Shown piece after piece: positions 29,619 through 58,247 of a stretch of 64,000 nt of DNA. Both the position numbers and the translations under genes were made by a program. The notes under the pieces were generated by a model, which saw only the letters and a program-made list of their open reading frames with translations, did not search any database and had not been told where the DNA came from. The stretch's first letter is position 1, and each line of letters begins with the position of its first letter. The stretch is from Cytobacillus firmus (GTDB lineage Bacteria > Bacillota > Bacilli > Bacillales > Cytobacillaceae), in the NCBI RefSeq assembly GCF_023612095.1, contig NZ_CP086235.1, forward strand, positions 3,793,501 through 3,857,500, written 5' to 3'.

Positions 29619-30464
29619 TTAACCTGCGATTATGTTCGCTGATTTAATGGCACTCGATAGCGTGGATTTGATGCTGACGTGATCAAAAGACAGCCCAAGC
29701 TGTACTGCGGTTTGGGCAATTTCCGGTCTTAACCCGGAGATTGTGGTCTTTACGCCGATCAGGCTTAGCGCTTCGATCAGCTGGAATAGCTTATGGGCTA
29801 CCATTGTATCGATCATGACTACGCCTGAAAGGTCAAGAAACAGCTGGCTGACGCCTAATTTATTGCATTGCTGCAGTGTATTTTCAAGCATGATTTTCGC
29901 TCGTGCTGTATCAATATCCCCGACAAGCGGCAGAAGTGCGATATTTTCTGTCAAAGAAATGACCGGGGAGCTGAGCTCAAGGATTAAAGCCTGCTGAGCC
30001 TGCAGCCTCTTCTGGGAATGGTTATTATACTCTTCCGTGAACCAGGTAACTATTTCCCCAATGGTTCTGATGATCATCCTGCGCCATAAGGCGATATGTT
30101 TGTCATCATATTGGCCCTGATTGATTTCAAGGAACTGCTCAAGCAGATTCAAATACTGTTCCTGAGTGTTAAAGAACTCCTTGTGAATCATCTCAAGAGG
30201 TGTGCGGAGATGTTCATCATCCTGCGCCACATTGACAATCCAGACTTCCAAATCATTAAAGAAGGATTCTTCATCTTTATGGAACACTTCGGAGAACTTC
30301 TTGTGAAATTCGTAATTTTGCTTTTTTACGCCTTCGATCACAGCGGGGTCTTCCGAGGCATACACTCCGCCGCTCTCTTCTTTATTTACGCTTTTATACC
30401 ATTCTTCAGTTAAATCCCACGTTTTCTCAAGGAAAAATTGATATAGATCATGATTACGATGCAT
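29619..30464 (-). CDS. RsbR-family stressosome protein (RsbRD-like)
   Basis: Cytoplasmic protein of 281 aa with an RsbR layout: a helical N-terminal sensor-like domain (~1-150) and a C-terminal STAS domain (~160-281). The STAS part shows LELSSPVISL, LLPLVGDIDTARA and LDLSGVVMIDTMVAHKL. IDTM contains the Thr that RsbT phosphorylates in RsbRA (T205). RsbR paralogues build the stressosome that releases RsbT and activates sigma-B. GGGGAGA precedes the ATG. It is an isolated gene, as RsbRD is in B. subtilis. Confidence 0.85.
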   Translation of the reverse strand: MHRNHDLYQFFLEKTWDLTEEWYKSVNKEESGGVYASEDPAVIEGVKKQNYEFHKKFSEVFHKDEESFFNDLEVWIVNVAQDDEHLRTPLEMIHKEFFNTQEQYLNLLEQFLEINQGQYDDKHIALWRRMIIRTIGEIVTWFTEEYNNHSQKRLQAQQALILELSSPVISLTENIALLPLVGDIDTARAKIMLENTLQQCNKLGVSQLFLDLSGVVMIDTMVAHKLFQLIEALSLIGVKTTISGLRPEIAQTAVQLGLSFDHVSIKSTLSSAIKSANIIAG

Positions 30465-50661: not shown

Positions 50662-50692
50662 AAAAAAAGAGCCCCTATGAGGCCCCCAGCTC
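50662..50692 (-). terminator. Terminator of the B12/STAS operon
   Basis: On the minus strand GAGC and CCT pair with AGG and GCTC, followed by TTTTTTT. The stem includes the STAS stop codon. Confidence 0.65.
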
Positions 50693-51459
50693 GTTCCGAT
50701 TAAAATAGATATTTAAAACCTGCTTCAAAGATTGGTCGATCTGCACCCATTCATCCAGCTTGTAGTTATTCAGCACTTCCGCCAGGTTTGGCTTTATGCC
50801 AATCAATTTGATGATGCTGCCTGTCATGAAGTTCAACGTTTTAATCAGCTGGGTGAATTTCTCGATGCCTTTTCCCTCAATTTCTCCTACTGCTGTCAGA
50901 TCAAAAAGGATTTCGTCATATTCGCCGGCAAAAACAGCCTTCAGGCAGCTTTCGGAAATAATGTTAATTTTATCTGAAGTGATATCCCCAAATAATGGGA
51001 TCAGGCAAAGTGTTTCAGACAGCGGGATAAACGGTCCGGACAATTGATTCAGGCGGGTCAGCACCTGCTCCAGCTCTTCTTTTTTCTCCAAAAGTTCAAA
51101 GTCGGTGGAGGTGAGGCGCTGCTGCAGCTGCATCAGTTTATCCATCAGTCCTTCGTTTGAGCTGTCTTTGGGCAGAAATAGCATATTGGCATGATCCTCG
51201 CTGTCCCATTGGATATGAACCTCAAATAAACAGAGTGGCATTTCCTTGGTCTTCATATTCAGTTCCAGCTTTACAGGATCCACACCGGGCTCCCAGCTGT
51301 ACTGAATGAGCTTTTCAATGCTTTCTTCATCGATGATTCCTTTTAGGTGCCCCCGCTCAGGTCAAAACATTCCCGTGCGATAGTGGAGTAGCTTACTATT
51401 TTTCCGTTTCTGTCAGCTTTTAAAAACGCAAGCGGAAGCGCATGATTAAAATATTGCAT
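50675..51459 (-). pseudogene. Frameshifted PAS/STAS RsbR-like protein
   Basis: A ~261-aa protein in two frames. The first (start MQYFNHALPLAF, RBS GGGAGG) holds a PAS-like segment LKADRNGKIVSYST; the second has a coiled coil (LQQRLTSTDFELLEKKEELE) and a C-terminal STAS domain (CLIPLFGDITSDKIN, ILFDLTAVGEIEGKGIEK). One extra base in the CCCCC run at 51341-51346 (GGGGG in sense) joins them as LSGGHLKGIIDEE. Where RsbR proteins have the phosphorylatable Thr (IDTM), this one has IEGK, so RsbT-type phosphorylation there is unlikely. It overlaps the B12-binding gene by 14 nt and looks like the output partner of that sensor. Confidence 0.8.
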
Positions 51460-52090
51460 TTTGCCGTCCTCCCGCTTCATAATTTTGGAGCCATTTCTTT
51501 GTTTCCGGCAAATCTTTAAGGATAACTGTACGATCGGAACAATACGGAAGCAGGTCATACTTCCCTGCCAATCGCCCGCCAAGAATAACAGCCGGCTTAT
51601 GCGGCAGCTTGGCAAATGCCTCGGCATATTCCCTCAGCTTCGGCAGGTGATAGACGATGCTGACCGACAGGCCGATGACGCTTGGCTTCCATTCTTTAGC
51701 CGATTTCAGCGCATATTCCAAAGGCAGGCTCGGGCCAAAATATTTCGTCTCCCAGCCGTGCTCTTCAAAAAGACTGTTGACCATTTTCAGTCCAATATAG
51801 TGCTGTTCACCATCCAGGCAAAGAAACATGGCTTTTTGGGGCGATGATCTTTTTTCACGCTGATAAGCGAGCTTTGATAGTACAAAATCACATGTAGCTG
51901 TTGCCAGATGCTCATCTGCCACTGTGATTTGATTCGTCTCCCACAGATGGCCGATGTGCTGCATCGCAGGTGTAATCAGATTTTGATAAACCTCGATACG
52001 CGATAGCTGCGGGTGCTTTTGAAGGTTGGCCCAAACTTTTGCAGAATTACCTTCCAGCAGTAGAGAAGCGAGTGTTTCAGCCTGGTTCAC
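51446..52090 (-). CDS. Stand-alone CarH-like adenosylcobalamin sensor protein
   Basis: Cytoplasmic protein of 214 aa: a helical cap (~1-80) and a Rossmann-like B12-binding domain (~85-214). The base-off cobalamin motif is ExHxxG (E95, H97, G100), followed by SVS and GG loops (GLSVSIVY, ILGGRL). The cap holds Trp50, Glu60 and His61. Thermus CarH uses Trp131, Glu141, His142 and His177; the spacing here (+10, +11, +47) is almost the same as its +10, +11, +46. That set is characteristic of light-sensing adenosylcobalamin proteins. Unlike CarH/LitR, there is no MerR DNA-binding domain. It starts with GTG one base after the preceding stop. Output through the STAS protein is inferred. Confidence 0.85.
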   Translation of the reverse strand: MNQAETLASLLLEGNSAKVWANLQKHPQLSRIEVYQNLITPAMQHIGHLWETNQITVADEHLATATCDFVLSKLAYQREKRSSPQKAMFLCLDGEQHYIGLKMVNSLFEEHGWETKYFGPSLPLEYALKSAKEWKPSVIGLSVSIVYHLPKLREYAEAFAKLPHKPAVILGGRLAGKYDLLPYCSDRTVILKDLPETKKWLQNYEAGGRQNAIF

Positions 52091-52091
52091 T

Positions 52092-52457
52092 TTACACTCC
52101 TCCCTTCAAAGGTTCACCTTTCAAAACAGCAATGGCTTCGCCCAGGTATAGCTGGAACTTCTCTGTCTTTTCAGCAGAATCCTTATCTTCAGCCAGCACA
52201 GCCTGAATGATTTCGAAGTTGTCGATCAGATGCTGGGTCTTCATCCCGTGCTTAGTTAAAATGCCCTCAAGCCAAACGGCATAATCAGTGAAAAAAGCAG
52301 ATTTGTCCAGCTCATAGGCTGTCACCAGATGCTTCATATGATGATGATTGTCTTCCCGGCACTTCTCTTTTCCCTGTTCGCCGAACCGTTCCAGAAGGGA
52401 AGGCTCACGCTCATAAATTTTCTCGGTAACACTATTTACGATCTTATCATGATTCAC
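52092..52457 (-). CDS. Small all-helical protein in the B12 sensor operon
   Basis: Hydrophilic protein of 121 aa, predicted all-helical. Its most distinctive part is LLERFGEQGKEKCREDNHHH, then FTDYAVWLEGILTKHGM. This His/Cys-bearing block resembles a domain I have seen beside cobalamin-binding or STAS proteins, but I cannot name it. The GTG start shares GTGA with the stop of the monooxygenase gene, so translation is coupled. It may be a sensory or adaptor module that joins the B12 protein to STAS output. Confidence 0.75.
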   Translation of the reverse strand: MNHDKIVNSVTEKIYEREPSLLERFGEQGKEKCREDNHHHMKHLVTAYELDKSAFFTDYAVWLEGILTKHGMKTQHLIDNFEIIQAVLAEDKDSAEKTEKFQLYLGEAIAVLKGEPLKGGV

Positions 52458-52759
52458 TTAGCCACCACCTTGTATTGCGCTACTTTTGGAATCACAGCAG
52501 CCAGTTCCTGATCCGGATATTTCTTTTCCAAATCATGGATTCTTTTAAAGTCCTCGCTCCGGACCCAGTTTATATAGTTTTCCTTTGTATCAAAAATGAG
52601 CTGCACAGTCAGTTCACCGGCGCGTTTATCATTCTGCAGAAGCAGAAAATCGACAAACCCCTCTGCCTGGTCGACCGACCTCGAGCGATTTTTATATATG
52701 CGAATGACTTCTTCCGACTTTTCATCGGGAACGTCGAATGTTGAAAAAACAGTGTACAT
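52454..52759 (-). CDS. ABM-domain (haem monooxygenase-like) protein
   Basis: Protein of 101 aa with the antibiotic-biosynthesis-monooxygenase dimeric ferredoxin-like fold. VDQAEGFVDFLLLQ and WVRSEDFKRIH match the IsdG/HmoA group, where Trp and His ten residues later lie in the haem pocket. The Asn near residue 6-7 of true IsdG enzymes is not obvious. It is first in a four-gene operon with the cobalamin protein, so a tetrapyrrole link (haem or corrin) is possible. GGAGGAGAGTTC precedes the ATG. Confidence 0.8.
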   Translation of the reverse strand: MYTVFSTFDVPDEKSEEVIRIYKNRSRSVDQAEGFVDFLLLQNDKRAGELTVQLIFDTKENYINWVRSEDFKRIHDLEKKYPDQELAAVIPKVAQYKVVAK

Positions 52760-52797
52760 GAACTCTCCTCCAATTTTGGGAGTCTTATGGCTTCTTC

Positions 52798-52825
52798 AGT
52801 ATAACACACTGTTTAAGATTGTCAT
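52798..52825 (-). promoter_or_regulatory. Sigma-A promoter of the B12 sensor operon
   Basis: On the minus strand ATGACA (52825-52820), 16 bp, TATACT (52803-52798), each five of six to consensus. It lies 39 nt before the first ATG of the operon. Confidence 0.7.
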
Positions 52826-56244: not shown

Positions 56245-56331
56245 ATTTGCGGATATTTCAAGCAATATGGACAAGGGCTCTTTCCTTCTGATTTTTCCTT
56301 CATATATTAGGAGGAGAAAGGAGTGAAACCC

Positions 56332-56592
56332 ATGTGCCATTTTTGTGTTGAAGAATATTATTACAAGAAAAAGGTCTGCTGCAAAAAGAAAGAAGAGCCA
56401 GAACATCACGGCTGCAAGAAATGCACAAGCGATTTTAAACACCACTGTTCCTGCCCAAAATGTTCCTTTGAACATAAAAGCTGCTCCTGTAAAAAATGCT
56501 CACCTGAAATTCATCATTGCACCTGCAAAAAATGCTCATTTGAACGTCATCACAGCTGCTGTAAAAAGTGTTTCCACAGCTCTCACTATTAA
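56332..56592 (+). CDS. Cys/His-rich repeat protein
   Basis: Small protein of 86 aa with 17 or more Cys and many His and Lys. A unit like CSCKKCSxExHH recurs about four times (CSCPKCSFEHKS, CSCKKCSPEIHH, CTCKKCSFERHH, CCKKCFHSSHY). This suggests repeated metal-binding knuckles or a cross-linked structural protein. The ATG at 56332 has AAAGGAG eight bases upstream, and a strong terminator follows. I do not recognise the family. A spore-coat, metal-storage or zinc/copper-buffer role is possible, but none is shown. Confidence 0.72.
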   Translation: MCHFCVEEYYYKKKVCCKKKEEPEHHGCKKCTSDFKHHCSCPKCSFEHKSCSCKKCSPEIHHCTCKKCSFERHHSCCKKCFHSSHY

Positions 56593-58133: not shown

Positions 58134-58247
58134 AAAAGCGGAAGCGCCTCCAGATGAACTTCAACTAAAAACCGCCACGTCCTGTGGCGAACGTTGAAGT
58201 CAGCACATCCTGGTGCAAGCCTGAGGGCTAGGCGCTGCAGCTAGACA
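58134..58247. repeat. Intergenic structured repeat with CAGCTAGACA end
   Basis: AAAAGCGGAAGCGCCT at the left and GGGCTAGGCGCTGCAGCTAG at the right are joined by a two-part stem: ACTTCAAC (58158) with GTTGAAGT (58193), and inside it CGCCAC (58173) with GTGGCG (58184). AGCGCCT also pairs with AGGCGCT, closing the whole element. The right end resembles the element near 38010. I recall this arrangement as a dispersed repeat in many Bacillus genomes. Confidence 0.7.

Follow-up and report, generated by a model that had tools for sequence, protein, structure and literature searches.

Relation to known B12 and bilin photosensors

Photocobilins, represented by SasPcob (8J2W/8J2X) and AbPcob (8J2Y), bind adenosylcobalamin (AdoCbl) and biliverdin within one chain, in which a B12 domain with a Trp, Glu-His, and E/DxH signature is joined to a phycobiliprotein-like globin (PMC10979010; our account of this and the other published sources draws on parts of each). 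SasPcob is predicted to interact, in Saccharothrix, with STAS, SpoIIE, and PP2C proteins, and, as a stand-alone protein, it could control an enzyme in trans through direct contact (PMC10979010). In this respect, the operon described here is comparable. Phycobiliprotein-like globins linked to B12-binding proteins are also known as photoglobins and as BBAG-2, the latter being generally associated with B12-binding proteins and with a heme oxygenase in the genome (PMC10151467). Our operon is a variant on these known systems. It lies in a 64,000-nucleotide (nt) stretch of the Cytobacillus firmus genome (contig NZ_CP086235.1, positions 3,793,501 to 3,857,500; the whole stretch is called the window) and runs on the minus strand from 52759 to 50675, encoding, in order, an ABM protein, a helical protein of 121 amino acids (aa), a cobalamin protein of 214 aa, and a PAS-STAS protein. 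An earlier reading of the window, made from its letters without database searches (the sequence-only reading), had proposed a light- or B12-sensing operon here, and the minus-strand open reading frames (ORFs) bear out the first three genes with their coordinates, the start of the fourth, and the tight coupling, with a 4-nt overlap, a 14-nt overlap, and a 1-nt gap.

Relative to photocobilins, the operon divides the two halves between two genes, with the ABM gene ahead of them and a PAS-STAS or PAS-kinase partner after them. Its folds, motifs, gene order, co-occurrence, and link to RsbT come from computation, and we think it probable that its products make up a split photocobilin that signals to the stressosome.

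A probable photocobilin encoded by two genes

The cobalamin protein (51446..52090, minus strand) contains Pfam B12-binding and B12-binding_2 domains, and its best match in the PDB is SasPcob (8J2W, 1.5e-13), followed by 8jbs (“putative cobalamin binding protein”), AbPcob, and CarH (1.6e-7). By these sequence matches, it is closer to SasPcob than to CarH. The residues that the sequence-only reading had singled out, Trp50, Glu60, His61, and His97, together with ExHxxG, are all present and correspond to the photocobilin B12-domain signature. That reading had allowed that Trp, Glu, and His might prove not to be conserved; of 68 homologous ORFs, 64 retain W-x9-EH with E-x-H-x-x-G after it, a count that was the same with a loose pattern, used first, and with a strict one, used later. 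The four exceptions are the two halves of one frameshifted gene (L077) and two HD-GYP-type proteins (L078:6948-8708 and L087:6933-8912) that lack W-x9-EH, match the B12 profile toward their C-terminus, and lie near an ABM-globin pair. The spacing had been proposed to be nearly that of CarH: Trp and Glu are 10 apart, as in CarH, and His61 and His97 are 36 apart, as in SasPcob (His72-His108), against 35 in CarH, both CarH values being those of the sequence-only reading. The His-His distance, however, ranges from 36 to 43 across the 64 homologues.

Pfam detected no MerR-type DNA-binding domain in the 214-aa protein, as had been claimed, which sets it apart from CarH/LitR, with which it shares the B12 domain and the light-sensing residues, and a CarH transcription factor was rejected on this ground. 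The evidence supports a predicted CarH-type B12 photoreceptor domain that lacks a DNA-binding domain. The genome encodes a cobalamin adenosyltransferase and, outside the window, a separate MerR-B12 protein of the LitR/CarH type (L146:1310-2215; CarH, 144.6 bits, cut-off 400), so that the strain may hold two kinds of B12 sensor.

What had been described as a helical His/Cys protein (52092..52457, minus strand) is instead a stand-alone, photoglobin-type (phycobiliprotein-like) globin. Its AlphaFold model best matched the globin domain of SasPcob and then phycobiliproteins, and the Cys-x-x-Asp of the bilin site is kept (C33-x-E35-D36). Column counts over 46 of 102 homologues, with redundant ones and a 66-aa fragment excluded, gave CXED in place of the CXRD/CXQD chromophore motif, with Cys and Asp kept and Glu at the third place in 46/46. 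D36 and W62 are likewise invariant (46/46) and stand 26 apart, as do Asp270 and Trp296, the biliverdin contacts of photocobilin; W62 aligns with the photocobilin Trp when the globin is matched to each of the two photocobilins, without gaps but weakly (E 0.4-0.5; residue numbers were worked out by us from the matches and published positions), with the Asp just outside the matched stretch. Among the 46 members, Pfam assigned Phycobilisome to 20 (best 5.8e-5) and MetOD1 to 15 (best 0.0015), and a further 15 families were each matched by no more than two members. Foldseek returned no match for the globin at 0.001, so the fold assignment rests on VIA, profile, and residues together. Photoglobins are said to have CXQD (PMC10151467), whereas the operon globin has CXED, belongs to Bacillales, and accompanies an IsdG-like ABM gene; photocobilins are said to lack a biliverdin-linking Cys (PMC10979010), whereas here a Cys sits three residues before the Asp.

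No fusion of B12 domain and globin was seen among 120 listed of 192 matches, none of which has the length or coverage that a fusion would need; the window pair is two ORFs. The corrected reading of the pair is a photocobilin cut in two, and, as a single fused protein with a solved structure is matched by both halves, a complex formed in trans is the simple reading.

Gene order and co-occurrence

Among the closest 80 of 113 loci, the ABM, globin, B12, and PAS-STAS genes stand in this order on one strand in 56, far beyond chance; the four genes are conserved together, which the sequence-only reading had set as a check. The globin and B12 genes adjoin in 61/80 loci and the ABM and globin genes in 77/80; in the three exceptions to the latter (L079, L083, and L103, titled Paenibacillus), the globin gene is divergent from a B12 gene. 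Co-occurrence was counted in genome sets compiled by hand. An initial set of 61 genomes held 29 with the globin, every one of which also had the B12 protein, on different contigs in two. Across 249 genomes of the order (cut-offs of 1e-8 for the globin and 1e-30 for the B12 protein), the globin was found in 101, fragments included (G121 and G124), the B12 protein in 106, and both in 92. The PAS-STAS form is present in 66 of these 101 globin genomes, and 26 carry no assigned output form.

Several loci depart from this layout. One genome (G033) has two clusters, one with ABM, B12, and PAS/STAS genes but no globin (L161) and the other with B12, PAS-kinase, and globin genes (L162). At L158, L159, and L160, the gene after the B12 gene encodes a short PAS-like protein (180-220 aa), without a Pfam match in the two that were scanned; the adjoining gene has a repetitive coiled coil reminiscent of CheB/CheR-PAS proteins. 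An RsbR-like STAS gene lies just upstream of the ABM gene in two loci (L046:3611-4459 and L056:3541-4353), in the second of which the B12 gene is without a detected PAS-STAS gene behind it.

The ABM protein and the supply of bilin

IsdG-type heme-degrading monooxygenases have an Asn-Trp-His triad. The ABM protein (52454..52759, minus strand; 101 aa), named as an ABM monooxygenase by the sequence-only reading, proved IsdG/HmuQ-like by Pfam (ABM, 1.1e-11), NCBIfam (HmuQ, 1.1e-11 and 44.9 bits, below the cut-off of 130), and the PDB (TT1380, 2.6e-4; IsdI, 8.3e-4), and all four genes thereby fit one scheme. It shares the fold of IsdG, IsdI, and HmuQ, as well as the Trp (Trp65) and His (His75) of the triad, but has Ser (Ser6) at the place of the Asn. 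This holds across the family: in 78 sequences (77 from the loci and the window's own), Ser occupies the Asn place in 77, with Trp kept in 70 and His in 76.

That the ABM gene stands almost always ahead of the globin gene hints that its product acts on or with the ligand of the globin, and the protein is a candidate heme-to-bilin enzyme, the formation of a bilin being our guess. IsdG-family enzymes are said to yield staphylobilin and formaldehyde, not biliverdin (PMC9393634). No FDBR is encoded among the four operon genes, a genome-wide search for FDBR or a classical heme oxygenase not having been made. The genome encodes three further ABM proteins, so that a bilin could also come from elsewhere.

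The PAS-STAS protein and the stressosome

The layout of sensor domain, helix, and STAS domain that defines the RsbR/YtvA family is present in the intact protein of a relative (P0104), whose model (mean pLDDT 74, with a poor linker) had YtvA and RsbR as its top fold-search matches. In contrast to YtvA, the PAS domain lacks the photoactive Cys of LOV domains: none of the fully or almost fully conserved columns of 42 PAS-STAS proteins is a Cys, and the highest Cys column in an alignment of 57 reaches 39% (21-32% within the PAS part). Photosensing would be in trans, by other proteins. The equivalents of RsbR Thr171 and Thr205, located visually by comparison with the RsbR of this genome, are mostly replaced as well, being Gly and Val in the reference, with Thr or Ser at the first place in 7 of the 57 relatives and Thr at the second in 2. 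The STAS part does contain IEGK in place of IDTM, as the sequence-only reading had reported, but the missing Thr, from which it had argued for a different mode of signaling, is not special, given that at least three other STAS proteins of the genome (L151, L152, and L153, by eye) lack it and that the position is variable within the family. A second, RsbR-like STAS protein with the usual Asp-Thr motif is encoded in the window at 29619-30464 on the minus strand (L150:920-1765).

The stressosome kinase RsbT is present in 76 of the 77 genomes with the PAS-STAS form (cut-offs of E <1e-50 in the 61-genome set and <1e-40 in the 249-genome set); the 77 include the window strain's frameshifted copy and a partial match in G119, with the G121 fragment excluded. 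Among seven genomes that have only the PAS-kinase-type form, RsbT is missing from four; output forms were scored on at most ten candidates in most genomes, so that counts of kinase and PAS-only forms are to be read as “at least”. Four of the seven (G099, G189, G214, and G240) were confirmed by Pfam, whereas three (G086, G124, and G156) were placed by frame length and coverage, G156 having no globin or B12 match. NCBIfam, at 1e-10, gave no match for the RsbS-, RsbT-, RsbX-, and long ABM proteins, which are therefore named from their resemblance, their gene order, and Pfam matches to STAS/HATPase. Our results support the coupling of a stressosome-type STAS protein to a B12 photoreceptor domain.

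In the window, the PAS-STAS gene begins at 51459, as claimed and as in the intact gene of relatives, but it is not the single reading frame that had been supposed. Specifically, its frame ends after 38 codons at a stop at 51343 (51343..51459, minus strand), and the rest of the PAS domain, the linker helix, and the STAS domain follow in another frame (50675..51283, minus strand, counted from a GTG, with the frame open slightly further upstream; Pfam STAS, 2.1e-7; NCBIfam YtvA_fam, 54.6 bits, cut-off 250). The frameshift lies at approximately 51343..51361 (minus strand), where all ten compared relatives carry one extra base. PAS and STAS share a single frame in 14 of 15 same-genus loci (L002-L016); in the exception (L009, from G035), frame changes split the B12 gene as well as the PAS-STAS gene, perhaps through assembly errors. 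From its sequence, the window gene appears to be either a pseudogene or the product of a sequencing or assembly error.

Proposed mechanism and alternatives

In the scheme that we favor, the globin, as the bilin half, and the cobalamin protein, as the AdoCbl half, would form a photocobilin-like complex in trans, for which the ABM protein would make, trim, or deliver a linear tetrapyrrole. Light would alter this B12/bilin complex, and direct contact between proteins would relay the change to the PAS domain of the YtvA-shaped PAS-STAS protein, which would sit in or on the RsbR-RsbS-RsbT stressosome and alter the release of RsbT, and hence SigB. We infer the cofactor binding, light response, complex formation, and output direction of the operon proteins by this route. 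A fuller version, in which the stressosome input senses light by AdoCbl and a linear tetrapyrrole on separate subunits, with the tetrapyrrole supplied by the altered IsdG-family enzyme of the operon and held covalently at globin Cys33, is offered tentatively, as possible rather than likely. In the window strain, the output gene is frameshifted, which means either that the arm has been lost there or that the sequence is in error; for this reason, the finding is weaker as a single case, while it is stronger as a family-wide system than first described.

The same pair might instead report cobalamin and heme/bilin status (or oxygen or redox state, via heme breakdown) to the stressosome, with light playing no physiological part. 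AdoCbl is light-sensitive in many settings, such that a photoreceptor-like pocket is no proof of a light role, and a heme-degradation-like gene directly precedes the globin gene at nearly all loci (77/80). Such a chemical sensor is nevertheless unlikely, given the retention, in 64/68 homologous ORFs, of the Trp and Glu-His, residues with which SasPcob holds the adenosyl group and makes links across its dimer (PMC10979010). Less likely again is a STAS protein that acts on another partner-switching target, for example, a different anti-sigma factor or a transporter, rather than on the stressosome, as RsbT accompanies all but one of the PAS-STAS genomes and is missing from four of the seven kinase-type-only genomes.

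In the version that follows the sequence-only reading, a lone CarH-like sensor would act on the PAS-STAS protein, the ABM and globin genes being incidental. The coupling of the sensor to a stressosome-type STAS protein stands, but the sensor is not alone, having a bilin-type globin gene alongside it. The Wx9EH motif with a STAS neighbor, 14 genomes with the B12 protein in which the globin went undetected, and the absence of an adjoining globin at L161 would suit a lone sensor, which we consider improbable in view of the B12 protein's presence in 92 of the 101 globin genomes, even on different contigs, and of the match of both halves to one fused protein. A methyltransferase corrinoid protein with accessory genes, beside a STAS gene of unrelated regulation, would account for the name “methanogenic corrinoid protein MtbC1” that some sources give to homologues. 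However, no methyltransferase was detected among the four genes by Pfam, the NCBIfam scores (MtbC, 24.8 bits with the cut-off at 350; CarH, the best, 50.2 with the cut-off at 400) lean the other way, and a STAS or histidine-kinase protein serves as the partner; this corrinoid enzyme, very improbable by our estimate, was rejected.

Regulatory context and other window features

Upstream of the ABM gene, the first of the operon, a ribosome-binding site (GGAGGAG, 52765..52771, minus strand) and a weak candidate sigma-A-like promoter (ATGACA, 16 nt, TATACT; 52798..52825, minus strand) were placed by eye. Across 76 loci, the region upstream of the ABM gene contained a candidate SigB promoter in 3, against 0.6 in simple shuffles, and a candidate SigA-like promoter in 6, against 2.5. 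No cobalamin riboswitch was found at gathering level between 44000 and 60000 of the window. Farther along the plus strand lie a Bacillaceae-1 RNA (RF01690, 55.5 bits; 58149-58216) and a small ORF (56323-56592) whose product has a very high content of Cys, His, and Lys and repeats CKKC pieces, and which may be spore-coat-like or due to chance.

Implications

The sequence-only reading had regarded a light- or B12-responsive arm of the stress response as new. Light input to SigB is already known through YtvA, which responds to blue light, and a photocobilin-STAS interaction has been predicted in Saccharothrix (PMC10979010). In searches of the openly accessible literature, which takes in few subscription papers, judged by title and start of abstract, we found no paper that connects B12 or bilin photosensors with the stressosome of Bacillales, none that connects an IsdG-type enzyme with a photosensor of the bilin kind, and none on a SigB response to green-to-red light. 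Gene neighborhoods were reportedly studied in the photoglobin paper of Schneider 2022, which may already show this operon.

If the split photocobilin is real, an unrecognized B12/bilin photosensor would be present in about two fifths of the sampled genomes of this order (globin in 101 and B12 protein in 106 of the 249 genomes), and, through the PAS-STAS form in 66 of the 101 globin genomes, it would address the general stress response. Photocobilins would thereby gain a concrete output, orphan ABM and globin genes would be accounted for, and optogenetics could draw on two- or three-part tools, while the exchange of STAS for a histidine kinase behind the same PAS domain makes the wiring testable. 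The fuller version, with covalently held tetrapyrrole, would mean in addition that a bilin photosensor is fed by an enzyme of the IsdG type and that SigB responds to green-to-red light.
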